From Symbiodinium sp. CCMP2592 (lineage: Eukaryota; Sar; Dinophyceae; Suessiales; Symbiodiniaceae), in assembly GCA_905221615.1 (NCBI GenBank), contig CAJNDT010000136.1, positions 829,001 to 893,000 of the forward strand: 64,000 nucleotides of DNA, in the 5' to 3' direction. The notes below the pieces were generated by a model. That model saw nothing but the letters and a program-made list of their open reading frames with translations. It was not told where the DNA came from and did no database searches. The translations under genes were made by a program, and so were the position numbers. Positions 3,355-59,860 of the stretch are shown here, piece after piece. Every line of letters starts with the position of its first letter. Position 1 is the first letter of the stretch.

Positions 3355-3570
3355 ACTTGGAGGTTCATGGGTAGTTCTAAGGGTCCCTTAAGGGGTTTTG
3401 GGTTCAGGGTCTACTTGGAGGTTCATGGGTAGTTATAAGTGGGGTTATAGGGGCTCCTTTAAGGGATCTATAAGATTTAGAGTTTAGGGGTAGTTATAAG
3501 TGCGGTTTTGAGTCCCCTAATAGGTACCTTACTTATAACCCCACTTATGACTACCCATGAACCTCCAAGC
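3355..3570. mobile_element. Hairpin MITE, family A copy 1, with extra left arm
   Basis: The left arm ACTTGGAGGTTCATGGGTAG is present twice (3355 and 3413). The right arm at about 3532-3569 is the complement (CTACCCATGAACCTCCAAG). TTTAAGGGATCTATAAG boxes lie between. The duplicated left arm suggests nested insertion or arm duplication. Confidence 0.7.
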
Positions 3571-31470: not shown

Positions 31471-31756
31471 GTATTTGTGTTTATGCACCTGTGCTGTGTA
31501 TCTATACAAATTTCCAATACACATCAGTACGAATTCGGCAGGTGCCAATCCTCCCACACCTGTGCCCTCAGGAGAATGCCGCTGAGCGGCAGGAGCTTTC
31601 TGAGGTCACGCAGGTGCCTGCGGATATTCAATTTCTCCTTCCGGCTGAAGCAGCGGTTTCTGTCGACTCACTGAAGGCTGCATGAGCTGCTGCATGTTTC
31701 GAGCTCGAAGTAGCCAGTGCATTGCGTGGAAAGTCCACAAGCTGCCGCCTTCCCTC

Positions 31757-34102
31757 ATGTTAGCGCCGAGCCTTCCGCTTGCTGCCCTCTTGGCATGGCA
31801 GCTGTCGACGTGCCATGGCAACGCTGATCTCTGCTGGGTCGGAGTGCCGGATGACGTCAGAGATCTCTGTTGCGAGTCTGGAAGAAGTAGCTGTTTCACC
31901 CCTGACTTCACTTTCGAACTCTGCTGTCAGGGGAAGCAAGCGACACGGAGCCCGGGGGAGCCGGCATTCGACCGCAGCGCTGCGTGTTTTGAGGAGGGTA
32001 ACACCTTCACCTACCGAAGGTGCTGCGAAGCCGCTGAGGACCTGAAAATTTTCGTTGCAGACGGCGGCTGCTTCGAGCATACTGGGAAGTATACCTACTT
32101 GAAGTGCTGCTTGGACCTGCCATTTCTGGAACAGTGGATACACGTCGACGAGGTGAAAGGCTCCCCGAGCTCCGACTTCTATCAAATAAGGGGAACATTG
32201 TACATGACCGAACAGGTCAAGCAGCGGTTTAGGCGAAGTGGTGGTACTATGCCTCCTGCTACGCTTGGCGGCGTCAGTCACGCTGACGTGCAAAGTCCCT
32301 GCTTGCGAGATCTGCTCTACGACTCCAGGTACCAGCTTTTGCCCATGTGGAGCGGCAAAGAGATCTTTCCTCCACCTCCAAAGGACATCAACGTTGTTAT
32401 CAAGTTCCGTACCCGCATGAGGGAAGCTGTGGCGTGCTGGGGTGATACTGAGTGCCAGCTGTACATGGTCAAGCTCGACTGGTACTCTGTGGAACACCAT
32501 CGTTTCGAAGGAGCCTACATGTTGTCTCTGCCCGTTACCTGCAACCTCGGAGAAGCCGCAGTGACGGTGATCCCGCTGATTTCAGACCGCCTTATCCATG
32601 ACGCAGCCATCCTTGGAGGTGCCGCCTTTCAGCGAGTCCGGGAAGGTGATGCATGTGTCTCGCCACCAAGGACACCCGGCGTCCGAGCAATGTGCGGCAT
32701 CCTTTCCGCCTTGTGTTTGATCCCGTGGCTGTTCTGTCGTTGTTGGACGCATACCCGCGACACGTCGGCATCCAAGGAAAAGGCTCCGAATGTGGCCGTT
32801 GACATCTTGAGACTGCTCGCAGCCTGGATCGTGGTTGATACCCACAGAAGACAGCCGTTTCCGTTCAAGTGGCCGGTATGCGACTTGACCGGTGCAGACA
32901 TGGCAAGGCTGGAGGACGTATTCGTGGTACTGACGGTCCGATTGGTGTCTATTCACAGCTTGACATTGCAGTCGTTTGCGATGAAAGTCTTGCGGAAGGT
33001 AGCGGTCCAGGCAACCACGCAAATAGCATTTACACATGTGGTAAGTTTGTTCGTTCGTCCTGCGTCCCCGTGGTACTGTGGACAGAAGCTGTTCTTCGAG
33101 GACGGACAGCCAGGGGGCTCTTTGGCAGGTTGGTTAGATTGGATGCTGGGGGCGGCAACGATGCGAGACTTTGCCATACCAGACAGCAACAACTTTGATT
33201 CAGGAATGGTGTGGCCAGCATATCCAGCCGACGATTTTCCAAACCCAACCTGGCCAACATCGACATGGTTTGTTTGCTTGGAGTACTCGATTTTGTGGTT
33301 TATCGGAGCTGCCATAGCGATCGAGTCTGTACTGCCACACATAGTTCCAGCCGGCACAGTGGCCTATATTGCATGGATGTTCGCGGACTTAGACCGTCAG
33401 CCCCAAGTCTGTTGTAGGGATTACTACTATTCGCTCCGATACTGTCGGCTACCCGCTGCCATGTTGACCCACTGTGCCTGCCGAGCCCTTGCGCGGTTTC
33501 TCGGGCCAACAGGATCTCTCCGACAGAGGTGGACGCCTTTGGTCATCGCTGCTGTCGGCGGGGCCCTCGCGCTGAGCGTCGTCGTTGAGGACCATCCCGC
33601 CTGGGAATCTTTCGGCTTCGGGAAAAGCCAGTGCAGGCGACACTTGCCCTACATGGTCGCGGGATTGCCCTTTCAATTCGGTCTGCTAGTGTTCACATTT
33701 CTCGACATACAGCTGCCGGCGGCAGCAGCGGTGTGGGTCAGCTACCTTGCAAACTTGAACTTTTGCATCATGGCCTCTCATCTCTGGATCTTGATGCTCT
33801 TCGACAAGCATGCTCCCGAGTTTATAACTGCGTGGTCCAGCGTGAGAAACGATGCGGAAGGAAGCCTTTTCGCGATGCATCAGCTCATCGTCATTTATGG
33901 CGTTGCAGCTCTGTTACACGCCTTGGTGGCGAAGCCCGTGCAGCTGCTGGTCAGAGGAGTGGCACGGTATCCATCTTTCGCGCCGCCGGTCGCGTTTGCT
34001 CATCTGGTGCTTTGCCTGCTGACCTGGCCACGCAATTTCAGTCATTACCCGCTGTTCATATATGGTGACAAGCTTCCGGGTGCTGGATCTGCTCCACCAT
34101 GA
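31757..34102 (+). CDS. Cys-repeat acyltransferase-3-like membrane protein, copy 1
   Basis: Intact intronless gene of 781 residues. The start is the ATG before MLAPSLPLAALLAWQL, a signal peptide whose position is conserved in all three copies; an in-frame ATG at 31682 is upstream but not conserved. Residues 26-118 hold four Cys...CC units (C26/CC38-39, C46/CC56-57, C77/CC89-90, C105/CC117-118) with FTFELCC or YTYLKCC signatures, likely a disulfide-rich extracytoplasmic domain. A globular linker follows (120-300), then a first hydrophobic span (311-329). The remainder resembles acyltransferase 3 (NRF-6 type): VDILRLLAAWIVVDTHRR at 348-365 with a candidate catalytic His363, LEDVFVVLTVRL (385-396), WPTSTWFVCLEY (499-510), RRHLPYMVAGLPF (627-639) and several further spans up to 756. 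Family members move acyl groups across or at membranes; the substrate here is unknown. The family call is from motif order and topology, not a search. Confidence 0.7.
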   Translation: MLAPSLPLAALLAWQLSTCHGNADLCWVGVPDDVRDLCCESGRSSCFTPDFTFELCCQGKQATRSPGEPAFDRSAACFEEGNTFTYRRCCEAAEDLKIFVADGGCFEHTGKYTYLKCCLDLPFLEQWIHVDEVKGSPSSDFYQIRGTLYMTEQVKQRFRRSGGTMPPATLGGVSHADVQSPCLRDLLYDSRYQLLPMWSGKEIFPPPPKDINVVIKFRTRMREAVACWGDTECQLYMVKLDWYSVEHHRFEGAYMLSLPVTCNLGEAAVTVIPLISDRLIHDAAILGGAAFQRVREGDACVSPPRTPGVRAMCGILSALCLIPWLFCRCWTHTRDTSASKEKAPNVAVDILRLLAAWIVVDTHRRQPFPFKWPVCDLTGADMARLEDVFVVLTVRLVSIHSLTLQSFAMKVLRKVAVQATTQIAFTHVVSLFVRPASPWYCGQKLFFEDGQPGGSLAGWLDWMLGAATMRDFAIPDSNNFDSGMVWPAYPADDFPNPTWPTSTWFVCLEYSILWFIGAAIAIESVLPHIVPAGTVAYIAWMFADLDRQPQVCCRDYYYSLRYCRLPAAMLTHCACRALARFLGPTGSLRQRWTPLVIAAVGGALALSVVVEDHPAWESFGFGKSQCRRHLPYMVAGLPFQFGLLVFTFLDIQLPAAAAVWVSYLANLNFCIMASHLWILMLFDKHAPEFITAWSSVRNDAEGSLFAMHQLIVIYGVAALLHALVAKPVQLLVRGVARYPSFAPPVAFAHLVLCLLTWPRNFSHYPLFIYGDKLPGAGSAPP

Positions 34103-37750: not shown

Positions 37751-38019
37751 ACTGGTTCAGGTTGCGTTTGGAGCACTGTGGGTCGGCGAATTTCAAGCTT
37801 TGATTTGTGCGGGTATGATGCAGGAGCCAATTGAAGATCCCTTATTAAACCTTCATAAAATTATGAAGCCTGGAAGAACTTGGTGTTCAATCATGAAGTT
37901 CCAACACGACATGAAGATGGTTGATAGAATCCGGTGCTCTGTGCTTCAAGCCTAGCTGGCTGGCCGGAGTGGGAGGTTGCATTGAGGGTCGACATGCTGC
38001 TGCTTTGCTGGGATCTCGC

Positions 38020-40391
38020 ATGTCAGTGGCGAGCCTTCCGCTTGCTGCCTTCTTTGCATGGCAGTTGTCGACGTGCTGTGGCAGCACGGATCCCTGCTGG
38101 TTCGGGGTGCCTGATGATGTCAGAGATCTCTGCTGCAAGTTTGGAAATAGCAGTTGTTTCAGCAACGAGTTCACTTTCGAACGGTGCTGTCCGGGCGTGC
38201 AGGCATCATCCGTTTCGACATCGGACCATATTCCGCCCGATATAGCACACGACCGCAGAAGTCCGTGTTTCGAAGAGGGTTACTCGTTCACATATGGACG
38301 GTGCTGCGAATCTGCTGATGACGGCTTCAAGGTGCTCATATCCGATGGAGGGTGCTTTGACAGCGACGGACCGTACACATACCTAAAATGCTGCTTGGAC
38401 CTGCCAGATCTGCAAGACTGGATACATGTCGACGATGTCAAAGGCTCCCCAACGTCCGACTTTTTCGAGATGAATGGCACGCTGTACATGACCGAAGCAG
38501 CAAAACAACAGTTTAGAGAAAGTGGTAGTACTATGCCTCCAGCTAAGCTCGGCGGCGTCAGTCATGCTGATGTTGAAAGCCCCTGTTTGAAGAGCTTTTT
38601 GTACGACTCCAGATTCCAGCTCCTGCAGATGTGGAGCGGCAACAACATCTTTCCCCTTCCAATAAAGAACATCAATGCGGTCAGAAAGTTCCGCACCCGG
38701 ATCGACGAAGCTGTGGCGTGCTGGGGTGATGCAGAGTGCCAACTGTACATGGTCAAGCTGGACTGGTATTCCATGCAGCATCATCGTTTCGAGGGTGCTT
38801 ACGTGCTGACGCTGCCGGTTACTTGCAGCATCGGAGAGGCTGCAGTGACGGTTATTCCAATCGTGGCGGACAGAAGCATCCGTGGACCAGCAGTTATCCT
38901 TGGAGGTGCCTCCTTTCAGCGAGTCCGAGGAGGTGACGCATGTGTCTCGCCACCAAGGACACCTGGCGCGCTCGTAATGTGCGTCACTGTTTGCGCCTTG
39001 TCTCTGGCTCCATTCATGTACTGTCGCTTTTGGCGGCAAAGCAGCCGCGCATCGGCATCCAACGAAAAGGCTCCCAATATTGCCGTTGACGTCTTGAGAC
39101 TGCTCGCGGCATGGATCGTGGTTGATACCCACAGAAGACAACCATTTCCCTTCAAGTGGCCTATATGCGACATGACCGGCACAGACGTTGCAAGGTTGGA
39201 AGACGTGTTCGTGGTGCTGACGGTCCGCTTGGCGACTATTCACAGCGTGACACTCCAATCGTTTGCAATGAAAGTCTTGCGGAAAGTAGCGGTCCAGGCA
39301 AGCACACAAACAGCATTTACACATGTGGTAAGTTTGTTCGTTCGTCCTGCGTCCCCGTGGTACTGTGGTCAGAAGCTGTTCTTTGAGAGCGAACAGCCAG
39401 CGGGCTCTTTGGGAGGTTGGTTGGAATGGATGCTGGGGGCGGCAACGATGCGAGACTTTGCCATGCCAGACAGTAACAGCTTTGATTCAGGAATGGTGTG
39501 GCCTGCATACCCAGCCGACGATTTTCCAAACCCAACATGGCCAACATCGACATGGTTTGTTTGCGTGGAGTACTCGATTTTGTGGTGTATCGGAGCTGCC
39601 ATAGCGATCGAGTCTGTACTGCCACACATAGTTCCAGCCGGCACCTTGGCCTATGTTATTTGGATGTGCGTTGATGTAGGCCATCAGCCTCAGATGTGTG
39701 TTTCCGGTGACTATTATCATTCCCTCCGGTACTGTCGGCTACCCTCTGCCATGTTGACCCACTGTGCCTGCCGAGCTCTTGCGCGAATTCTCGGGCCAAG
39801 AGCATATATCCCACAGAGGTGGACGCCTGTGGTCATCGCTGCTATCGGCGGAGCCCTCGCGCTGAGCGCCGTCGTTGAGGACCATCCCGCCTGGGAATCT
39901 TTCGGCTTCGGGAAGCGCCAGTGCAGGCGACACTTGCCCTACATGTCGCGGGATTGCCCTTTCAATTCGGTCTGCTAGTGTTTACATTCCTCGACATACA
40001 GTTGCCGGCGGCAGCGGCAGTTTGGGTCAGCTACCTGGCAAACTTGAACTTTTGCGTCATGGCTTCTCATCTTTGGATCTTGATGTTCTTCGAGAAGCAT
40101 GCACCCGAGTTTATTTCTGCTTGGGCAAGTGTGAGAGAGGACGCAGAGGGAAACCTTTTCGCGATGCAACAACTCTTCGTCATCTTCGGTGTGGCAGCTC
40201 TGTTACACGCCTTGGTGGCAAAGCCTGTGCAGCTGCTGATTAGAGAAGTGGCACGGTATCCATCTTTTGCGCCGCGAGTCGCGTTTGCTCATCTGGCGCT
40301 TTGCTTGCTGACCTGGCCACGCAACTTCAGTCATTACCCGCTGTTCACGTATGGTGACAAGCTTCCGGGTGTCGGATCTTCTGCGCAGTGA
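38020..40391 (+). pseudogene. Cys-repeat acyltransferase-3-like protein, copy 2 (1-base frameshift)
   Basis: Same architecture as copy 1: signal peptide starting at the conserved ATG (38020), four Cys...CC units, linker, then the acyltransferase-3-like membrane domain with VDVLRLLAAWIVVDTHRR and its His. About nine residues are added between Cys units 2 and 3, as in copy 3. At 39945 one G is missing compared with copies 1 and 3 (CTACATG-TCGCGGG against CTACATGGTCGCGGG). The frame therefore ends at 39978 (652 residues), losing the last roughly 138 residues, which contain the final membrane spans. The downstream frame (to 40391) remains open and conserved, so the lesion is very young or a sequencing/assembly error. 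If corrected, the length would be 790 residues, equal to copy 3. No intron is present. Confidence 0.7.
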
Positions 40392-41164
40392 CGTAGGCAG
40401 GCTGCACAAACGGCAGCGGAAGCCTCCACGAGCCATGGGCCCATGCCCAACTTGGGAGAAGGTTCTGCAAGCAATCACATGGTAAAATTCTCGTATAATC
40501 CCTTTAAGCCCTGGAAGGCAGTATGACCTTCAGCTCCAAGACCATCCAAAACCCCAACTTGCAGTCCTGCCTGCAGATTGTGTCTTTTTAAGGGTTCTGC
40601 AAAGCACTAGGAGGCCCCATAGGTGAACCTCAAGCAAAACCACAGGAACCCGTCTGAGACAATTGAAAAAATCCGCAGACTAAGTTTCCATGATCCTCAG
40701 CCAGAGACGAGCAGTGTTTTCGGCTTTAATGACGACTTGCATATTGGTCACGGTTTCCAGCTTCAGGATTTACACTTAAAAGGAAACCTCACAAAACCCG
40801 TAAAGGAGCGCTAAACTCTTGTAGCTCAGAGATTGAGACCCCAATTGCAGGGCTTCTGATTACATGGACTCGAGGTTCATTCGCCGAACGCTGGACCCTA
40901 ATATAAGTCTCAATACCTATACTATGCTGGGTGTCCTTGTAAAAAATGTAGTAGAATACACCCCAAAACCTTTTTCCAGTAAGATCATAGAACCCTCATA
41001 GTAACCCTTATAGAGCCCTTTTTCAGGAACCCTGTAAGGGAGCCCTATTCGAATTATTAAGGCCCCTTAGAGTAGACCTTTCCGAGCCCGCCATCTTTCC
41101 TTCATGTGGGACCTCGAGAGCGTCTCGAAATCCCGCGTTCAGGGCGCAAGTGGCCAAAACCATA
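40392..41164. other. Downstream of copy 2; no gene
   Basis: The proximal 3' flank resembles that of copy 1. Near 40910-40970 is a decayed hairpin with GGGTGTCCTTG and TACACCCC, words also found near 58500-58555. Family B-like right-arm fragments occur near 41030-41065. No gene. Confidence 0.45.
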
Positions 41165-41270
41165 CCTAGAGTCTCCATTGTAGTTCCTTTCTTTGATTAG
41201 GTCTTGAGCCAATGTTAATGTAGGTTCCTAGGAGGTAACCCCAAAAAGGAAGCACAAAGGAGACTATAGG
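41165..41270. mobile_element. Hairpin MITE, family G copy 2
   Basis: The left arm AGAGTCTCCATTGTAGTTCC pairs with a right arm ending GGAAGCACAAAGGAGACTAT. The interior is longer than in copy 1 and contains GTAGGTTCCTAGGAGGTAAC. Confidence 0.7.
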
Positions 41271-41377
41271 TACCGTTCGAATCTTTAAAGGGGATCCTAT
41301 TATCGAACCCCATAATACGTTTAAAGCGGACCAGGTTGTACCCCTAAACCCCTTAACCCCTGAACCCCTAGACCCTC

Positions 41378-41482
41378 TACTATTTGCTTAAGAAACCCCC
41401 AAACAATAAAAATAATCATCCCTATATTACCCCCATAAGGAATATATTTTGTATTTTTTTGGGGTTCTTAAGCAAATAGTAG
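41378..41482. mobile_element. Hairpin MITE, family J
   Basis: A 105-bp element with 18-bp perfect terminal inverted repeats (CTACTATTTGCTTAAGAA and TTCTTAAGCAAATAGTAG), flanked by CCCT on both sides, a possible 4-bp target duplication. Its core contains CCCCATAAGGAATA at 41431-41444, the same 14 bases found in the intron of copy 3 (43774-43787). AT-rich, non-coding. Confidence 0.8.
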
Positions 41483-41614
41483 CCCTAAACAACTGCCAGC
41501 GTGTCCGGATCCAGGTTGCCATCCCTGGAGGCGTACTCGATCCCTAACTCTGGCAATCTCCCAGGGCCCTCCATCCCGAAGGCCCGAAAGCCTCACACAA
41601 GAATCCTTCACACT

Positions 41615-41714
41615 ACTTGCAGGTTCATGGGCAGTTATAAGTGGGGTTATAAGTCTCCTAATTATAGTTACCCTGCTTGTAACGCCACTTATAACTACCC
41701 ATGAACCTCCAAGT
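41615..41714. mobile_element. Hairpin MITE, family A copy 3
   Basis: A 100-bp element: ACTTGCAGGTTCATGGGCAG pairs with CTACCCATGAACCTCCAAGT, with further pairing of the AGTTATAAGTGGGGTTATAAG stretch. It is the most compact family A copy and lies 475 bp upstream of copy 3. Confidence 0.8.
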
Positions 41715-42188
41715 AACACCCTAAGACCCTAAAGACCTAAAGCCCCAAATCCTGAACCTTATCCCTAGACGCCCCAACTACCCTCTGATCTACCCAGAAT
41801 ACCCACAATTCACGGCCATAAGGACTCTATCAAAGGGCCCTTGGGCAGTCCTGGTCTCGAACCCCTGTAGTTCTGAACTGGCACCTATAGCCCTTTGGTC
41901 CGTCACTTGGACACCGAGGGGGCAAAAGCAAACGCTTGCTTAGTATGATTTATAGGTTTTAGGCATGTTCGGGGAATAGGGATCTTCAGAGCTTTGAGTT
42001 TAGGTCGTGTCTCTGCTAGTTGGGCATATGTTGTGAGTCGGGTGGGGGTGTAGGGGTCTACTACTTCAATGCAAGATCTGATATGCTAAGAACCCCATTA
42101 AGAACCAAGGTGCTCCTGAGCCGTTTGTGTCAAGTGTAGCCGGAGCACTGCAGAGCGTCGAAAGGTTGGTGGTTCGTTGCGGTCTCGC

Positions 42189-44664
42189 ATGTCAGCGACC
42201 AGCCTTTCGCTTGCTGCCTTCTTTGCATGGCAGCTGTCGACGTGCTGTGGCAACGCGGATCCCTGCTGGTTCGGGGTTCCTGAAAATGTTAGGCAGCTCT
42301 GCTGCAAGTTTGGAAATAGCAGCTGCTTCACGACCGAGTTCACTTTCGAACGGTGCTGTTTGGCGGTGCAAGCATCATCCACTTCGACACCGGACCATGT
42401 CCCGTCCGATATAGCACATGACCGCGGAAGTCCGTGTTTCGATCAGGGGAGCTCTTTCACACATGGACGGTGCTGCGAATCTGCTGATGACGGCCTCAAA
42501 ATTCTCGTATCCGATGGAGGGTGCTTTGACAGCTACGGACCGTACACGTACTTGAAATGCTGCTTGGACCTGCCAGATCTGCAAGACTGGATACATGTCG
42601 ACGATGTCAAAGGCTCCCCAACGTCCGACTTTTTCGAGATGAATGGCACGCTGTACATGACCGAACCAGCCAAACAACAGTTTAGAGAAAGTGGTAGTAC
42701 CATGCCTCCAGCTAAGCTTGGCGGCGTCAGTCATGCTGAGGTTGAAAGCCCCTGTTTGAAAAGCTTTTTGCACGACTCCAGATTCCAGCTCCTGCAGATG
42801 TGGAGCGGCAACAACATCTTTCCCCCTCCAATAAAGAACATCAATGGGGTGATAAAGTTCCGCACTCGGATTGACGAAGCTGTGGCGTGCTGGGGTGATG
42901 CAGAGTGCCAGCTGTACATGGTCAAGCTCGACTGGTACTCCATGCAGCATCATCGTTTCGAGGGTGCTTACGTGCTGACGCTGCCGGTTACTTGCAGCAT
43001 CGGAGAGGCTGCAGTGACGGTTATTCCAATCGTGGCCGACAGAAGCATCCGTGGACCAGCAGTTATCCTTGGAGGTGCCTCCTTTCAGCGAGTCCGAGGA
43101 GGTGACGCATGCGTCTCGCCACCAAGGACACCTGGCGCTCTCGTAATGTGCGTCACTGTTTGCGCCTTGTCTCTGGCTCCATTCATGTACTGTCGCTTTT
43201 GGCGGCCAGCTGGCAGCGCATCGGCATCCAAAGAAAAGACTTCCAATGTGGCCGTAGACATCTTGAGACTGCTCGCGACATGGATCGTAGTTGATACCCA
43301 CAGAAGACAGCCGTTTCCTTTCAAGTGGCCTATATGCCACACGACAGGTGCAGACATTGCACGGTTGGAGGACGTGTTCGTGGTATTGACGGTCCGCTTG
43401 ATGTCCATGCACAGCTTGACATTGCAATCGTTTGCGATGAGGATTGTTCGCAAAGTAGCAGTCCAAGCAAGCACCCAAATTGCAGTTACGCATGTGGCGA
43501 GCTTGTTTGTTCGTCCTGCATCTCCCTGGTATTGTGGACAGAAGCTGTTCTTTGAGGAGCAGCAGCCTCATGCCACTTTGAAAGGTTGGCTGGAATGGAT
43601 GCTTGGGGCAGCAACGATGCGAAACTTTGCGACAGCAGAGAGTAACAACTTTGACTCAGGCGCTCTGTGGCCAGTGTTCCCGGCTGATGATTTTCCAAAC
43701 CCGACTTGGCCGACGTCGACATGGTTTCTCTGTTATAGTTGAGTAACATTGTACATTTCTATGGGTATTTAAACCCCATAAGGAATAAACATGTACAGTT
43801 TTAATCCTATCCCAACCATGAACTAGGTTTGTCAGTTTGGAGTACTCGATGGTGTGGTTTGTCGGAGCGGCCATTTTATTCGAGTCGGTGTTGCCGCATG
43901 TGGTTCCAGCTGGCACCGTGGCCTATTTCGTTTGGATGTGCGTCGACGTAGCGCATCAGCCTCATTTGTGTGTTTCCTCGGACCACTATCAATCGCTCCG
44001 ATACTGCCGGCTACCCGCTGCCATGTTGACCCACTCTGCCTGCCGAGCCCTTGCGCGGTTTCTCGGGCCAACAGGATCTCTCCGACAGAGGTGGACGCCT
44101 TTGGTCATCGCTGCTATCGGCGGGGCCCTCGCGCTGAGTGCCGTCGTTGAGGACCATCCCGCCTGGGAATCTTTCGGCTTCGGGAAGCGCCAGTGCAGGC
44201 GACACTTGCCCTACATGGTCGCGGGATTGCCCTTTCAATTCGGTCTGCTAGTGTTTACATTCCTCGACATACAGTTGCCGGCGGCAGCGGCAGTTTGGGT
44301 CAGCTACCTGGCAAATTTGAACTTTTGCGTCATTGTCTCGCACCACTGGATGTTGGTGTTCTTTGAGAAGCATGCGCCGGAGTTTATTTCTGCTTGGGCC
44401 AGCGTGAAAGACGTGGTAGAGGGAAACCTGTTTGCGACACAACAGCTCATCATCATCTTGGGAGCAGCAGCTTTCTTACATGCCGTTGTCGCTCAACCTG
44501 TGCAGCTTCTGGTTAGGGGAGTGGCAAGATATCCATCTTTAGCACCGCCTTTGGCATCGGCTCATTTGGCGCTTTGCCTACTAACCTGGCCGCGCAACTT
44601 CAGCTACTACCCACTGTTCGCATATGGCGACAGCTTGCCGCGCGCCGGATCTTCTCCGCAGTAA
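42189..44664 (+). CDS. Cys-repeat acyltransferase-3-like membrane protein, copy 3 (two exons)
   Basis: Third member of the tandem array. Exon 1 is 42189-43723 and exon 2 is 43827-44664; splicing the 103-bp insertion gives 790 residues, the same as frame-corrected copy 2. The ATG precedes MSATSLSLAAFFAWQL, the conserved signal peptide. Four Cys...CC units, the linker and the acyltransferase-3-like core (VDILRLLATWIVVDTHRR, TSTWF|VSLEY across the junction, RRHLPYMVAGLPF) follow in the same order as copy 1. Without splicing, the frame stops at 43742, inside the insertion. The region from the fourth Cys unit to the first membrane span is almost identical to copy 2, whereas the stretch just before the intron (FATAESNNFDSGALWPVFP) differs from both others. 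Likely a functional membrane enzyme if spliced; substrate unknown. Confidence 0.7.
43724..43826 (+). other. Putative 103-bp introner-like intron in copy 3
   Basis: Copies 1 and 2 are uninterrupted at this position. The insertion starts GTTTCTCTG and ends ATGAACTAG, a canonical GT-AG pair, and removing it restores TGG TTT plus the conserved LEY codons in frame. GGTTTCTC (43723-43730) and GGTTTGTC (43826-43833) flank it as a 7/8 direct repeat, like a target duplication with one end used as donor. Internally ATTGTACAT and ATGTACAGT are short inverted repeats, and the core CCCCATAAGGAATA equals that of the family J MITE at 41378-41482. Its length is not a multiple of three and it has an in-frame TGA, so retention would abolish the protein. 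Confidence 0.7.
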
Positions 44665-46212
44665 CACGTGGCACAGGGTTTGGGTTCAGGGTTGGCCAGA
44701 CGGCCCTCAGGCTTCACATCCATCGTTTTCGTCTAGCTAGATGCCCCTGTCACATCTCCTTGTTCGTAGCCCAAACCTACCTGCCCGAAGTGCCAAGCAC
44801 ATCAAAGTCATATTGCCCTCATATGTCAAGCTACAACAATGCCAAGTGCCTAATGTTATACCATCCTTGTAAGACATCATATAACCCTTGTACAACCATA
44901 CATCCCGCTTGAAACTGGAAACGCTTCCAAAGGCTCTGCATAACGATTGCAAATCCCTATAAGACCCTCAAAAGTTTAAAACCCTATTGGCCCCATCATG
45001 AAACCCGAAAACACCCTATAACCCCTACACCCTTTAAACCCCTATTATACTATACACCATTTCACGCCCTTAAGACCCCATGAAAGCGCTCGAGGCCAAG
45101 CGGACGCACTGCGGACGCAAGATCGAGGGCTGTCGGAGAGACATTTGGCAGGGTTGAGGGCCTTAGGGTCGTTAGGATGTTCCGGCTGAATGTAGAGGCC
45201 TAAACATTGTCTAATTCTAGTGTGGAGGTACCTAATTTTCATGAACTGGAATGTACCCCCAAAACCCTATTCTAATTATTACGGCACCAATATCGTTGTT
45301 GTTTTGGGTGTTAGGGTTTCAGGTGTCTCAGGGCTATGGTGCGATGAATGAAGCCATGGAAGACCGGTTGTACACGTATCGTGAGTCATTCGTCAGTTGT
45401 TAAATCTTATCTGTTATAAGATGAATCGATATGGACTAAAAACCTACTCCATACGTCCATAAGTATCTGTGCTTCCAAGGCCCACAGAGCATTCTCAAAC
45501 CTGCCTGAAGCCCCAGAAACCTTATTGTAATGCCTTCTCACCCTCGCAGATCGCCGGGGAACAGCGCGGGAGGATCTGTGGCTCAAAGCTCCCTCCAGCA
45601 TTTCTGGAAGTCTACTGCCGAATCTCTACCAGAAACAGAACCGCCTTTTCTGTGGGTACGATTCTACACCCTGGCATAGCAAGGATGGAAACCCGGTAGT
45701 AGTGCTAGCGCACTGTTTGGGGAATGTCGCGTTTAAGGTGATACTTGACGAAGGTTTTAGGGTGACTGAGCGCAATGATTGAGGGTCATGGGCTTGAGCG
45801 TTGGGCCGTGGAGCTTTCAGGCTAGGTACATGGGTTACCCGGGTTTAGGGCTACAGTTTTTGAACAGAACCCTGCTATCATGCCTAAACACTCAAGGTGA
45901 ATGTATTTCCAATTGGCTGGAAAGTGATGTAAACCCTGAACCAATAAACTTAGATAGCCAATGGGTGAACTTTAAACTTTTTGGCCTTATATATTTGGTC
46001 TATCTTAGAAAGGTTAAACTTTTTTGGGTCCGGTTATTGAAGGAGAGAGTAAACCCTAAACCCTAAGGTCCTAGTAGCTGGTTCGCAAAGTGAGGTCAAA
46101 AGCCAGACGACGGCCGGCTCGAATTCGCCGAATTCGCCAATGCTGACTGCTTAATTGGTCCTACGGTGGCTCTTCCGTCTGGGCGGTTGGATGGTAAACC
46201 CAAAAACCAAGA
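44665..46212. other. Downstream of copy 3; no gene
   Basis: The 3' flank of copy 3 does not resemble those of copies 1 and 2. Decayed family B-like arms at 45220-45290 (CCCCCAAAACCCTATTCTAA then TTATTACGGCACC). A hairpin-like stretch with AAAGGTTAAACTTTTTTGGG lies at 45960-46035. No supported gene. Confidence 0.45.
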
Positions 46213-47295: not shown

Positions 47296-47300
47296 TTTGT

Positions 47301-49171
47301 ACGTTACCATCGCAAGGTTGTGGCTGTGAACAACTTACCAGCGAAAGGGTTTGGGGACACGATTACGTTACCGTCACAAGCTTGTGGTCGTGAACGACTC
47401 AACAGCGAAAGGGTTTGGGGACACGATTACGTTACCATCGCAAGCTTGTGGCTGTGAACAACGTACCAGCGAAAGGGTTTGGGGACACGATTGGGTTACC
47501 ATCGCCAGCTTCTGGCTGTGAACCATTTACCAGCGAAGACATTTGGGGACACGATTACGTTACCATCGCAAGGTTGTGGCTGTGAACAACTCACAAGCGA
47601 AAGGGTTTGGGGACACGATTGGGTTACCATCGCCAGCTTCTGGCTGTGAACCATTTACCAGCGAAGAGATTTGGGGACACGATTACGTTACCATCGCAAG
47701 CTTGTGGCTGTGAACGACTTACCGGCGGCGAAAGGGTTTGGGGACACGATTACGTTACCATCGCAAGCTTGTGGCTCTGAACAACTTGCCAGCGAAAGGG
47801 TTCGGGGACACGGTTACGTTACCATCGCAAGCTTGTGGTCGTGAACAACTTAACATCGAAAGGGTTTGGGGACACGGTTACGTTACCATCGCAAGCTTGT
47901 GGCTGTGAACAACTTGCCAGCGAAAGGGTTTGAGATCACGAGTACGTTACCTTCGCAAGCTTGTGGTCGTGAACAACTTACCAGCGAAAGGGCTTGATGA
48001 CACGGTTACGTTACCATCGCAAGCTTGTGGCTGTAAGCAACTTACCAGCAAAAGGGTTTGGAGACACGATTGCCATCGCAAGGTTGTGGCTCTGTGAACA
48101 ACATACCAGCGAAAGGATTTGGGGACACGGTTCCGTTACCATCGCAAGCTTGTGGCTGTGAACAACTTAACAGCGAAAGGGTTTGGGGACACGATTACGT
48201 TACCATCGCAAGCTTGTGGCTGTGAACAACGTACCAGCGAAAGGGTTTGGGGACACGACTACATTACCATCGCCAGGTTGTGGCTGTGAACAACCTACCA
48301 GTGAAAGGGTTTGGGGCCACGATTACGTTACCATCGCAAGCTTGTGGCTGTGAACAACCTACCAGCAGAAGGGTTTGGGGACACGATTACGTTACCATCG
48401 CAAGGTTGTGGCTGTGCACAACTCTCAAGCGAAAGGGTTTGGGGACACGATTGAGTTACCATCGCTAGCTTGTGGCTGTGTACAACATACCAGCGAAAGG
48501 ATTTGGGGACACAGTTCCATTACCATCGCAAGCTTATGGCTGTGAGCAACGTACCAGCGAAAGGGTTTGGGGACACGATTACGTTACCATCGCAAGCTTG
48601 TGGCTGTGAACAAGTCACAAGCGAAAGGGTTTGGGGACGCGATTACGTTACCGTCACAAGCTTGTGGTCGTGAACGACTCAACAGCGAAAGGGTTTGGGG
48701 ACACGATTACGTTACCATCGCAAGCTTGTGGCTGTGAACAACGTACCAGCGAAAGGGTTTGGGGACACGATTGGGTTACCATCGCCAGCTTCTGGCTGTG
48801 AACCATTTACCAGCGAAGACATTTGGGGACACGATTACGTTACCATCGCAAGGTTGTGGCTGTGAACAACTCACAAGCGAAAGGGTTTGGGGACACGATT
48901 ACGTTACCATCGCAAGCTTGTGGCTCTGAACCATTTACCAGCGAAGAGATTTGGGGACACGGTTACGTTACCAGCGCAAGGTTGTGGTTGTGCACAACTC
49001 ACAAGCGAAAGGGTTTGGGGACACGATTACGTTACCATCGCAAGCTTGTGGCTGTGAGCAACTTACAAGCGAAAGGGGTTTGGGGACACGACTACATTAC
49101 CATTGCCAGCTTGTGGCTGTGAACAACTTACCAGCGATACTGTTCAGCGACACGATTATGTTACCATCGCA
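47301..49171. repeat. 64-bp satellite array
   Basis: About 29 head-to-tail units, with a consensus running ACGATTACGTTACCATCGCA, AGCTTGTGGCTGTGAACAAC, TTACCAGCGAAAGGGTTTGG, GGAC. Unit variants (for example AACCATTTACCAGCGAAGA, GGTCGTGAACGACTCAACAG) recur in the same order: the block around 47340-47620 reappears at 48620-48900, an offset of 1280 bp or exactly 20 units, showing higher-order duplication. Since 64 is not a multiple of three, ORFs here change frame between units and are not genes. Confidence 0.92.
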
Positions 49172-52009
49172 ATTTTGTTTTGACCCCCTTCGATCGCATT
49201 ATTTATAGGGTTACATTGAGTCCGAAATTCAAGAAGTTTTCGTCGACTGATTTTACAAGTGACTGTTTCATGGGTGTGCCGCTGGGACCTCGAGGTGGTG
49301 TTTTAGGAAACGCAAGATATCCATTCGTTTGGCCTGGGAAAGCAAGAATGTAACAAAAGCCACGTTTGGCATGATGGACTTGAATAGTTGGTAAAACTAT
49401 TCCCTGTATAGGTTCTGTTGATATGCCCCAAAGCCCTACCAATCCCTTCCCCCTAACATGTCTTTCACCCCCCTAATATTAAAACATCCGGCCCTCGGGA
49501 TTTCGAGGTTTAGGGCACACAATTTAAAAAACAACATTCGGGGGTCCTAAGACTGTATTAGGTTGTAATAAAGCCAAGACTACAACAGTACTGAACCGAA
49601 AAGACCATGGCTTTAGGGTTTAGGGGTTCGGAGCTTAAGCCTTAGGGCTTCAGGATTCAGTTCTTTAAAAATTCGGGGCTGTAGGGCTTAAGGTTCAAAG
49701 TTTAAGGCTTAGGGCGGGACTGTTTGCTCTATAGCCGGGGCGGTTGCGTGTTGGGCGGTTTGTTTGGCTCATAATTACTCTCAATCCCACTCATACCCGG
49801 ATGCCGCCGAAACCCACCTTAATATGAAAAAAGCAGGCCCCGAAATCCAATTGTTTTTATTAGGGGAAGGGGGGTCTTGTGGTGGTCGTGGACAGTCTTG
49901 GTCATCGTGGTCCTCATGGTTGTCGTGTCGTGGTGTTGTATCACTGTCATGTAAGATTCAGAACGGGTATTGATGCTCATGACAATAACTATAACCATGA
50001 CGTGCTGAAAAGCTGTGGAATTGTTGAATTGACGGTCCCCTGGAAGCTTTAGCAGTAGCCGCAGCCATGGTTGTGGCTGTGGCTTCAGTAGCAGCAGCAA
50101 TAGCAGTAGTAGTGGTCGTCGTAGTAGTAGTGGTCGTAGTAGTAGTAGTAGTAGCAGCCGTATCAGTCGCAGTAGTGGTAGCTTGGGAACCTTTCTCTTG
50201 GACGCAGGGTTGAAGGAGTCAGCCAAAGATGGGATGTCAAGAGGGCACGGTATTTACGGCAGCGCTGAGTATTGGGTGCGACCCACGCAAAGAGTTGCTG
50301 ATGTCAGAGATCAAGGTGCCGAGAGTTTGAGTTTTTTGGACACCGCAATGGGCTGGGCAACAAATCGGCGAATGGTGGGCCTGAAGAGTTGGTGATTCAA
50401 GTCTGTATACAGTACAGCAAGAACCCTGCAAGTCCAGGCATTTAAGCAATTTACACAATGTTCGCATGTATTGCCAAAGAACTCGGACCTTTACACAAAT
50501 CGCGTTTTTAACGGGGCTAACGGAACTGGGGCTTTGCATTCGGCCACGCATCAGACATCATCAGATGTTCACAAGACCACAGGACCTTGACAGAAGATAC
50601 TCGTTACATCAGCAGTCCTTTCTTTAGAGAGAAACACCAAGTCCTCAATATGCCTGAATTAACCCGGGTTGACAGCTGTACACTGAGCTCTCAGGAGGAT
50701 TTGCCCAGTTGCTACGCGTGAAAAGCACGTAGGTTCATGCAAAGGTGCCAGAAGATAAATGTTAGGTCGGACCTAACGTAGATTATAAAGGTCCTCACAG
50801 CACCCTGTGTGACCCGTAAGAAGCGTTCAGTAAGACTTTCGACGTTGAGTCTGGCACATGATGTTCTTGCCTGCGGGCGGATGATGCAGGCTCGCTCTAG
50901 CGGTCGTGGTGTTTTCAGGCGGGGGTGATTCGCGTCTGGGCCGGATAGTTTGACGATGTCGGTTTCGCACATGATCTTCCGACGATGCCCAGCCGCAACT
51001 GATTGCTTCGATGCTAGACGGGAATGGCGAGCACTTGACCCCGAGCCTTGCAAAGCCAGACTCACCCTAACTCCGGGATGCGCAGGAGAATATGCATGAG
51101 TAGGCTGTCGAATAGCCAGGCCAGCCAGCATGATATCACGATGATCGACATTTCTGGTGATGGCGCTCGCCCTGTTTATTATCTGTGTTACTACAGTGCT
51201 ATGTTGCTGTTGGTGTTCTTGCAGGCAGCTAGTATCTTCGTCGGGTCTTCCACGATATCGAATTTTACAGCATGTTTTCATTGCTGACATATCTCATTGT
51301 TATTCCTAATCAAAAAAATCGAGGCTCTGCTCGTGCGAGGCATTTCCGTCGGCAGGATGGAGCTCTGCCACTGCAGCAGGGCACGGCAAGCACCACGAGA
51401 CTTGTGCGTCGTTTAAAACTCGCCGCTGCCTTTGCGCAGAACTTACGATCGCTGAGCCCTTCATTTGACCATGTTTTAGGGTGTTCTTCAAGACGATGTC
51501 TGAAGTGCAAGAATCTCGGAAGAGTCCTTGTTTACGGTTTGGACGCAGATGAGGTCTTCCCTTCGGTGCTAGGCCCGACCTCTCAGGAGCAAGCGGGAAC
51601 TTAGGAGCTCCCGCTTTAGCTGGCCCGCGACAGCCCCGATCTGAAACGCCAACCCTAGAGCCGAGACCAGACTGTCTAAATCCCAGACCCCTACCCCAGT
51701 GTGAACTTTCCCCAGCTAAATCACGTAGTGGATCGACTGCGGCTGTGAGCTGCCTCCACGCCTCCGCACTAAGTTTTCACGCTGCGCAGGTTCTTTTCAA
51801 TAAGGTTTAATCCTTACATTTTCTGACCTTTTAAATCCTCAACTCCTGATCAACGCTGAACTCCAACCCCAGCAATCGACGTGCCCGGGCAGACCCAGAC
51901 GCTGCCTGCGAGAAGTACCGGCAAGGCCCGACAAATTCAAGGAATTGAAAACTGGGAATATGTTGTAAAGCTGTTCAGTGGTGATGGCATATCTAAGCAT
52001 TTGTAACTC
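49172..52009. other. Gene-free region with AGT/CGT microsatellite
   Basis: TTTAGGG-like words at 49610-49710 and an imperfect GTAGTAGTGGTCGT trinucleotide repeat at 50070-50175. ORFs at 50700-51600 occur on both strands in moderately GC-rich DNA without recognisable domains. No supported gene. Confidence 0.4.
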
Positions 52010-58156: not shown

Positions 58157-58201
58157 CTTCTAGGGCTTAGGACTCCGGGCTTCGGCGAAGGGTGCAACAG
58201 T

Positions 58202-58318
58202 ACTTGGAGGTTCATGGTTAGTTATAAGTAGGGTTATAAGCCCCCTAATAGGAGTTATAACTATAGTTGCCCGACTTATAACCCCACTTATAACTAACTA
58301 CCCAGGAACCTCCAAGTA
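58202..58318. mobile_element. Hairpin MITE, family A copy 5
   Basis: The left arm ACTTGGAGGTTCATGGTTAG pairs with the right arm CTACCCAGGAACCTCCAAGT, plus GTTATAAGTAGGGTTATAAG against CTTATAACCCCACTTATAAC. 117 bp. Confidence 0.85.
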
Positions 58319-59860
58319 GCAGAATCAGGCGTGAAGTTTTGGCATGACTCGAAACATATCCGGAATCCTAAACCCTGTTTTTCTCAGAGCCATCCCGCCG
58401 TTCAGGCTTTAGGTTTTCTCTGTTTAAGTGTTGGGGCGAAGGGCCTAGGGTTCAGGGTGTAAGATGTGGGGATGCTCAGCAAGTAGTATAATATTTACCT
58501 ACACTATTTTGGGGTGTCCTTGCCATAGTTGTAGTATAACATACCCCAGCACCCTAAGTAGGTGCGATGATACGGTTGATGATATAAGTCCTGCATCACC
58601 CGTCGATAAGGAATATACCAAGATTGCCATAGTTTAGGGTCTTTAAGGTAATGCATGATTTATACCAGCAACTTTAGGTTGAGGTGGGCCCGAAAATGAT
58701 CGAGAGTCGCATCCCAAGGATGTAACCATCAGCGCGAGACTGCGGCATCATGCATCGTGAAAGCTGCACCCCACACCTTCCCGCCCCTAAACCCTATAAA
58801 CCCTAAACCTGTGCAGCCCAGGCTCCTATCGCAACGATGCCAACGATGCCAGTGGCCTGGCAGCATAGAATCGTTGAGGACCTTTTGGCACTTGGGTGCA
58901 AGGTGAAACCTTGATCACAGCATAGGGCCCTCTTAAGTGGCCATAAGGAAGAAACGGTTGACGAGCGTTAAGCTCTGGGCTAACGGTTGTGGTTTCGAGA
59001 TTCACAATACCTGAATTGCGACGTCTGGATTTCGATTGGGTAGCGCATGAAGGTTGTCGTGGCAGCGAGTTTCGGGTCGCGACTCCAGAATTTCCCAAAC
59101 ACGAACCCCCACAAGCCCCCAGAGTCAGAATGTTAAGATCGAATAAGAAAACTTGAGGTCTTTCGCTGCGGTTTAAGCTGTGTAAACCCAACGATTCACA
59201 ATTCGATCCACTTGGAAACTAAACAGTGCCAAACATGATGACAAAGCTCGTTTGCGAGTGGCATTGTAAATACCAGCATGCGAAAGCTCAGGGGCAACAT
59301 GAAGATCCAGTCGAGATACTCAGCAGTTGTGTAGCACTTACTTACTGAGTCTCGTTGCAACCTAGCTTGAACCCAACACCCTACATCCTAAACCGTCATC
59401 TGGTGCCCTGGACCCCGAAGTTCTCCGCACTAGAGCGTGCAAGCTACATCCCAAGTTCTCCTATTCAGCAATCCTAAAACTTGAACACCCGGAAACACAA
59501 GGCTTAAATTCTAAACAACCCCTAAACCCTAAACCACTAGACCCTAAGCTTTGGAGCAAAGGAAACCCCCCGAGCCGAAACGTCTGGTGCTTTTGCAGAG
59601 TCTGAACTTCCACAGCCAAAGTTTCCGTCCGAACCCTACCTTGCAAGTTTGGGGTTGAAAATTGGGTTTTTGGGTTAGGGGTTTTAAGGCTGCAGGGTTT
59701 TGGGGCTTAGGGATTAGGGGTTTTTGGAGGTTTAGGGTTTAAGGAGTATCTCCGAAGAATGAAGAGCCAGAATAGAAGCTTCGATGGCAAGGACCTGAAT
59801 TTCAAGCAGACCCAGTTTTTCGGCATCCTTGGGTTTGGGAAACTCCGTAAGTTGTTCGAT
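58319..59860. other. Gene-free region
   Basis: A decayed hairpin (GGGGTGTCCTTG...ACATACCCCAGCACC) at 58495-58555 resembles the one near 40910. Telomere-like words occur at 58785-58810 and 59520-59735. No supported gene. Confidence 0.4.

Follow-up and report, generated by a model that had tools for sequence, protein, structure and literature searches.

In Symbiodinium sp. CCMP2592, a MITE lying in the coding sequence of the third of three tandem paralogues is, as predicted from the sequence, now very probably a removable intron. The window, a stretch of 64,000 nucleotides (contig C136, positions 829001-893000), carried the three gene copies at 31682-34102, 38020-40391 and 42189-44664. A GT-AG insert of 103 bp, which the earlier note had reported as present in copy 3 only and as restoring the frame when removed, was found exactly at 43724-43826 and was absent from copies 1 and 2. 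We consider it highly probable that a MITE of a large family inserted in copy 3 after this copy had diverged from its sisters, and that the insertion made a spliced intron. The locus offered a clean comparison of filled and empty sites in one genome, in the same gene and at the same base, with the target duplication intact, so that the origin of each splice site could be read directly. The features of the locus were as follows.

31682-34102, + strand: copy 1, uninterrupted, with the empty site GTTT at 33268-33271
38020-40391, + strand: copy 2, without interruption at the site (GTTT at 39555-39558); its frame is shifted by 1 bp near 39945
42189-43723, + strand: upstream exon of copy 3
43724-43826, + strand: predicted phase-2 intron of 103 bp with GT-AG borders, made up of one target-site duplication and the MITE; not present in copies 1 and 2 or in the paralogue on contig C219
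43724-43727, + strand: 5' target-site duplication GTTT, source of the GT donor; the base after it, a C in every one of the 41 aligned rows, is the family edge
43728-43826, + strand: 99-bp MITE, 91.9% identical to the family consensus from end to end
43728-43743, + strand: 5' terminal inverted repeat, imperfect (12/16 in the consensus, 10/16 in the window copy)
43799-43813, + strand: pyrimidine-rich stretch 5' of the acceptor (TTTTAATCCTATCCC), a candidate splicing signal with a putative function, read from the sequence
43811-43826, + strand: 3' terminal inverted repeat, its last bases being the AG acceptor (CCCAACCATGAACTAG); 40 of the 41 aligned rows end in AG
43827-43830, + strand: 3' target-site duplication GTTT, retained at the start of the downstream exon, as placed by the family edges and the empty-site comparison
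43827-44664, + strand: downstream exon of copy 3, with 279 full codons including the stop and no premature stops

In the alignment of 41 copies, the first four of the 103 bp fell outside the edge of the family. The insert consisted of a 4-bp GTTT duplication and the 99-bp element, and a second GTTT followed directly after the AG. A flanking direct repeat matching at 7 of 8 positions (GGTTTCTC / GGTTTGTC) had been described before; the repeat itself was real in the form of the 4-bp GTTT, but the 7/8 extent was not, since its additional positions were a G common to both sides and matches within the element that arose by chance. It was dropped for the 4-bp duplication because the family edge was the C after GTTT in all of the 41 rows. 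Removal of the 103 bp gave copy 3 a frame of 790 aa, and with the insert retained the frame ran to TWFLCYS and then a stop. The predicted intron was in phase 2 and interrupted a tryptophan codon. When the consensus was compared with its reverse complement, the score was reached by 2 of 500 shuffles. The RNA fold of the insert was ordinary (z -1.34, with 20 of 200 shuffles folding equally well), and by these values an RNA hairpin was not supported as a functional feature of the insert.

The reading at the empty site in copies 1 and 2 was ACATGGTTTGTTTGC, and that in copy 3 was ACATG-GTTT-element-GTTTGTC. Over the 100 columns around the site, copies 1 and 2 were 98% identical to one another, so they did not represent two independent empty sites; copy 3 was 77-79% identical to each. 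The earlier note had likened the three copies to a natural experiment with two intronless sisters. The contrast of empty with filled held, but the independence of copies 1 and 2 did not, as they were homogenised, and a fourth paralogue added an empty locus. This paralogue came from an empty-site search of the genome, in which four first-look candidates were obtained and all were scored, with one further locus being L051 on contig C219. Its protein was 61% identical to that of copy 3 over the stretch with the site and was uninterrupted there (GACGTGGTTTGTTTGC). The ratio of empty to filled loci was 3:1, with a single-copy target in all three empty loci and a duplicated target only in copy 3, which makes insertion the simple reading. 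Presence and absence at paralogous sites, a mark of introners, was thus observed directly, with copy 3 filled and copies 1, 2 and C219 empty. Loss of an ancestral intron from all three empty loci, through gene conversion or retroposition, would fit the homogenised tract that copies 1 and 2 have in common over the site, since conversion would leave such a tract. Such a loss is nevertheless very improbable. The intron is an entire MITE with its target duplication, and the target is single-copy at all three empty loci. The C219 paralogue, whose coding alignment is broken elsewhere, is empty at this site, and the element is 8.1% from its consensus against a dS of 0.8-0.9 between the copies.

The region 37984-44665 was a mosaic of similarity. 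Copy 2 was 93-98% identical to copy 3 upstream, over about 700 columns, the intron site lay in a part where copies 1 and 2 were 91-98% identical, and further down all three copies were alike. This pattern suggests gene conversion among the copies that spared the intron region of copy 3. Near 39945, copy 2 lacked one G that was present in copies 1 and 3, which broke its frame and would make it either a recent pseudogene or a sequence error. At about positions 2180-2830 of the C219 locus, the coding alignment had other breaks, possibly introns missing from the tandem copies. A Pfam search gave no family for copy 1 or for spliced copy 3. Six protein relatives of the gene were found, and the four of them that were named were all from Symbiodinium. 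One relative, P0001, was 91% identical to spliced copy 3 and continuous through the intron site, and its N-terminus matched a translation of the sequence directly before the copy 3 start codon. P0001 resembles a mechanical single-frame gene call, which suggests an intronless orthologue, and it was not taken as proof of one.

The insert belonged to a large repeat family. The genome searched was an assembly of 1,098,105,373 bases in 5,383 contigs. When the whole genome was searched for the 103 bp, 1,483 first-look candidates came up, and all 40 of those that were scored matched, the window copy among them. Related sequence elsewhere in the genome, proposed before as a check on the insert, was thus present, with 39 scored matches besides the window copy. 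With at most 3 mismatches allowed, the 43-bp head of the consensus occurred at 1,321 places (657 + 664) in the 1.1-Gb assembly and the reversed control at 0; the window copy falls outside the 1,321, as it has more than 3 differences in the 43-bp piece. Besides the 40 scored matches, the 41-row alignment contained a further copy located within L016. All 41 rows had the initial C and T of the element and its final A, and 40 had the final G; the bases outside varied, and the ends of the family element were CTTTGTCAT...CATGAACTAG. Of the 41 rows, 25 had a perfect 4-bp duplication; when the comparison was shifted to four other positions, the counts were 0, 0, 0 and 1.

A larger sample contained 88 full-length copies among 103 distinct copies (105 BLAST hits) at 100 loci (L001, L009-L047 and L054-L113); L002-L008 and L048 were excluded as repeat places already among the 100. 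The sample was not random: 40 loci, including that of the window copy, were the scored matches best to the window copy, and the remaining 60 were zero-mismatch places of the 43-bp pattern taken in contig order up to C5074, skipping those already included. The 4-bp duplication was perfect in 60 of the 88 copies and matched at 3 or more of the 4 positions in 75, and a perfect duplication was lacking in 28. A GT duplication was not rare in the family, with 64 exact places. The element therefore had the properties of a MITE, namely a length of 99 bp, many dispersed copies, sharp common ends, a fixed 4-bp duplication and imperfect terminal inverted repeats, although the inverted repeats were weak. 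The class of MITE-derived introner, to which the earlier note had assigned the insert, was well supported by this repeated family with its near-invariant ends, 4-bp duplications and imperfect terminal inverted repeats, and further by a donor from the duplication, an acceptor from the element and other copies in unrelated open frames. An assembly artefact, or a transposon sitting inside an older intron, can hardly explain the insert. The 1-bp frameshift of copy 2 could indeed be a sequence error, but the edges of the insert were those of the family, exact to the base, both duplications were present, and intron and element coincided without extra intron sequence.

The window copy differed from the 41-row consensus at 8 of 99 positions (8.1%), and the other 40 rows differed by 4.0% on average. 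Its nearest relative among these 40 rows was 9.1% away, and since 39 of them were the best scored matches to the window copy, a closer one is possible among the unscored candidates. Two pairs of copies at separate sites, L022/L024 and L027/L042, were identical, and a third identical pair, L018/L020, had common flanks. On this evidence the window copy appears not to be among the youngest insertions of the family. The earlier description of the intron as newly inserted was too strong in view of the 8.1% divergence and the two other identical pairs, but it held in the sense that the insertion was young relative to the gene copies. Around the site, the dS of copy 3 was 0.89 against copy 1 and 0.80 against copy 2. 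Compared with the 8.1% divergence of the element, these values indicate that the insertion probably took place late in the separate history of copy 3, assuming that the consensus approximates the inserted sequence.

The downstream exon of copy 3 gave some indication of splicing. Protein identity between copy 3 and its nearest relative P0001 was 461/506 upstream and 252/279 downstream of the intron. In a simulation of neutral change at 8.1%, 7.8% of the runs left the downstream exon free of stops (P 0.078), so the open downstream exon alone was weak evidence. At the 88 full copies, one duplication and the element were removed and the length of the frame through the junction was measured with up to 580 bp per side. 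The frame thresholds were picked after the list had been viewed, and the three computed (200, 150 and 120 aa) are all reported. Joined frames of at least 200 aa were found in the forward orientation at 7 of 88 copies and in the reverse orientation at 0 of 88, in a sample that was not random. The duplication started with GT, GC or GA (donor-type) in 6 of these 7 and in 18 of the 81 others (Fisher p 0.0014). Without the window copy, the donor-type counts were 5/6 against 18/81 (p 0.0045), and the orientations were 6 to 0 (p 0.031). At 150 aa or more, there were 11/88 forward frames against 0/88 reverse, and 6 of the 11 were donor-type (p 0.063); at 120 aa or more, there were 17 forward and 4 reverse frames among the 88, with 7/17 donor-type (p 0.22). 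The donor association thus weakened at the lower thresholds. When flanks of 195 bp were used, a joined frame of at least 110 aa was present in 6/24 donor-type copies and in 5/64 other copies. The weaker members of the seven were L087, which gave a low-complexity protein, and L035, which was included in the donor-type count with unmatched duplications (GAAG/GCCT). L061 (AGGC) was the sole long frame without a G at the first base of the duplication, and a Pfam ANAPC4 match was found right of its junction. The product of L061 can also be exact if AG/GC...AG/GC is used, in which case the duplications would supply both the donor GC and the acceptor AG.

A further 20 loci were picked for a GT duplication and stand outside the 88-copy counts; the borders of L115, L117, L122, L123 and L125 were blurred by gaps or truncation. 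The joined frame of L130 (duplication GTGC) gave a Pfam APH match over residues 47-89 with the junction at residue 67 (E 2.2e-11). L130 was a convincing case, in which a MITE appears to split a Pfam APH domain that is re-formed on its removal. At the other 19 loci, the forward joined frames longer than 80 aa were L117 (112), L123 (95), L122 (93) and L133 (83), and the reverse ones were L116 (117), L121 (108) and L128 (87), of which L116 exceeded any forward one. Inspection by eye showed no recognisable protein in the joined frames of these 19 loci. Family copies thus lay in unrelated frames at L130 (APH), L061 (the ANAPC4 gene), L033, L031 and L113, as predicted introns. Similar predicted introns at unrelated sites, another mark of introners, were therefore found, and the family edges placed the element from intron base 5 to the acceptor. 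Read in either direction, the element finishes with AG (CTAG or CAAAG in the consensus). This raised the option of bidirectional introns, which the 88-copy sample did not support (reverse against forward, 0 against 11/88 at 150 aa or more and 4 against 17 at 120 aa).

These data bear on a different reading of copy 3, that the MITE is present but unspliced, the gene has been broken by a transposon, and the restored frame follows automatically from a duplication that starts with GT. The early stop produced by the retained insert and the 64 exact places with a GT duplication agree with a broken gene, as do the 81 of 88 sampled copies without a forward joined frame of 200 aa. We regard the unspliced MITE as improbable, since the downstream frame of copy 3 was open to the normal stop and its protein similarity matched that of the upstream part, the long joined frames elsewhere were forward only and mostly had donor-type duplications, and L130 split a Pfam domain exactly.

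In the favoured mechanism, a transposase supplied from elsewhere would have inserted the non-autonomous MITE into the coding sequence of copy 3, duplicating the 4-bp target GTTT. The upstream GTTT would then act as the GT donor, as duplications starting with GT, GC or GA would in other copies, and the element would bring the AG acceptor and probably also the signals before it, such as the pyrimidine-rich stretch. The downstream GTTT would be kept in the exon and the message left unchanged, because removal of the 4 + 99 bp by the spliceosome would restore the original message exactly. Insertions that could not be spliced would presumably be eliminated by selection. Since no forward joined frame of 200 aa was found at 81 of the 88 sampled copies, the family did not seem to be mainly an intron maker. 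We tentatively suggest, as an idea that could well prove wrong, that it is a general-purpose MITE and not a specialised introner, which inserts with little regard to genes, has a one-way acceptor and leaves the choice of donor to the 4-bp target. Forward insertions into coding sequence with a GT, GC or GA duplication would become exact introns at once and the rest would be lost, and the sampling of targets might be one of the main origins of the many GC-AG and GA-AG introns seen in Symbiodiniaceae. The GT, GC and GA donors that the wider family would take from its targets could explain, in a way open to testing, why this group has unusual splice donors.

The mechanism is already known in related algae, and the copy 3 insert is a new and well-resolved example of it. 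The introners of Symbiodinium microadriaticum are described as having 4-bp target-site duplications and terminal inverted repeats, and the legend of Figure 2B gives the 3' splice site as coming from the element and the 5' splice site as co-opted from the duplication (Gozashti et al. 2022, PMC9860276). The window element had the same layout, by which, and not by sequence, the two are likened; the lengths were also alike, with 115 bp for the example in that figure (LSRX01000224.1:86725-86839, assembly GCA_001939145.1) and 103 bp here. Introners were reported as enriched in genes in 161 of 175 genomes (PMC9860276), unlike the present family, in which 81/88 copies of a non-random sample were outside long joined frames. 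In Polarella and other dinoflagellates, families of introners that were active recently have given rise to introns (Roy et al. 2023 Curr Biol, as cited in the review PMC11453091), and the same review gives GC and GA donors as used by these algae. The window family resembles these in being a dinoflagellate introner and is matched to them by the description in PMC11453091. The introner elements of Amoebophrya are described as MITE-like, with direct repeats of 3-5 nt at the borders and internal inverted repeats (Farhat et al. 2021, PMC7789003). The window family is likewise MITE-like with short direct repeats at the borders and inverted repeats. The Amoebophrya elements differ in their inverted repeats of 8-20 nt, many non-canonical borders and a hairpin model (PMC7789003), whereas the borders in the window family were GT/GC/GA-AG and the fold was not unusual. 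In the tandem sPCP genes of Symbiodinium, introns were gained at sites with a donor-like target sequence (PMC4201569). These gains resemble that of copy 3, by description and not by sequence, in affecting tandem gene copies in Symbiodinium; the sPCP paper discusses pre-existing proto-splice sites, and a word search of its main text did not find "transpos". In the open-licence literature, no statement was found of one family lying mostly outside long frames and sampling GT, GC and GA donors, an absence that proves little.

Other repeats were also observed. Among seven aberrant family copies inspected, L115 contained an additional insert whose ends were inverted (CCAGAAAGTTGGAATAT ... ATATTCCAACTTTCTGG), together with a head that was repeated in part, all between GTTC duplications. 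In the window, a MITE-like element was located at 41377-41482, between copies 2 and 3, with inverted arms of 38 nt (82% complementary) beginning CTACTATTTGC and CCCT on both sides, like a 4-bp duplication. In its middle, 22 nt (41423-41444) were 86% identical to the middle of the introner, and because of this match the two elements may belong to one superfamily. A second inverted-repeat element, with arms of 40 nt that were 90% complementary, was found at 41614-41715, and similar sequence was present at 3482-3569 and 58197-58321. At 47300-49178, a unit of about 64 bp was repeated in tandem over about 1.9 kb.
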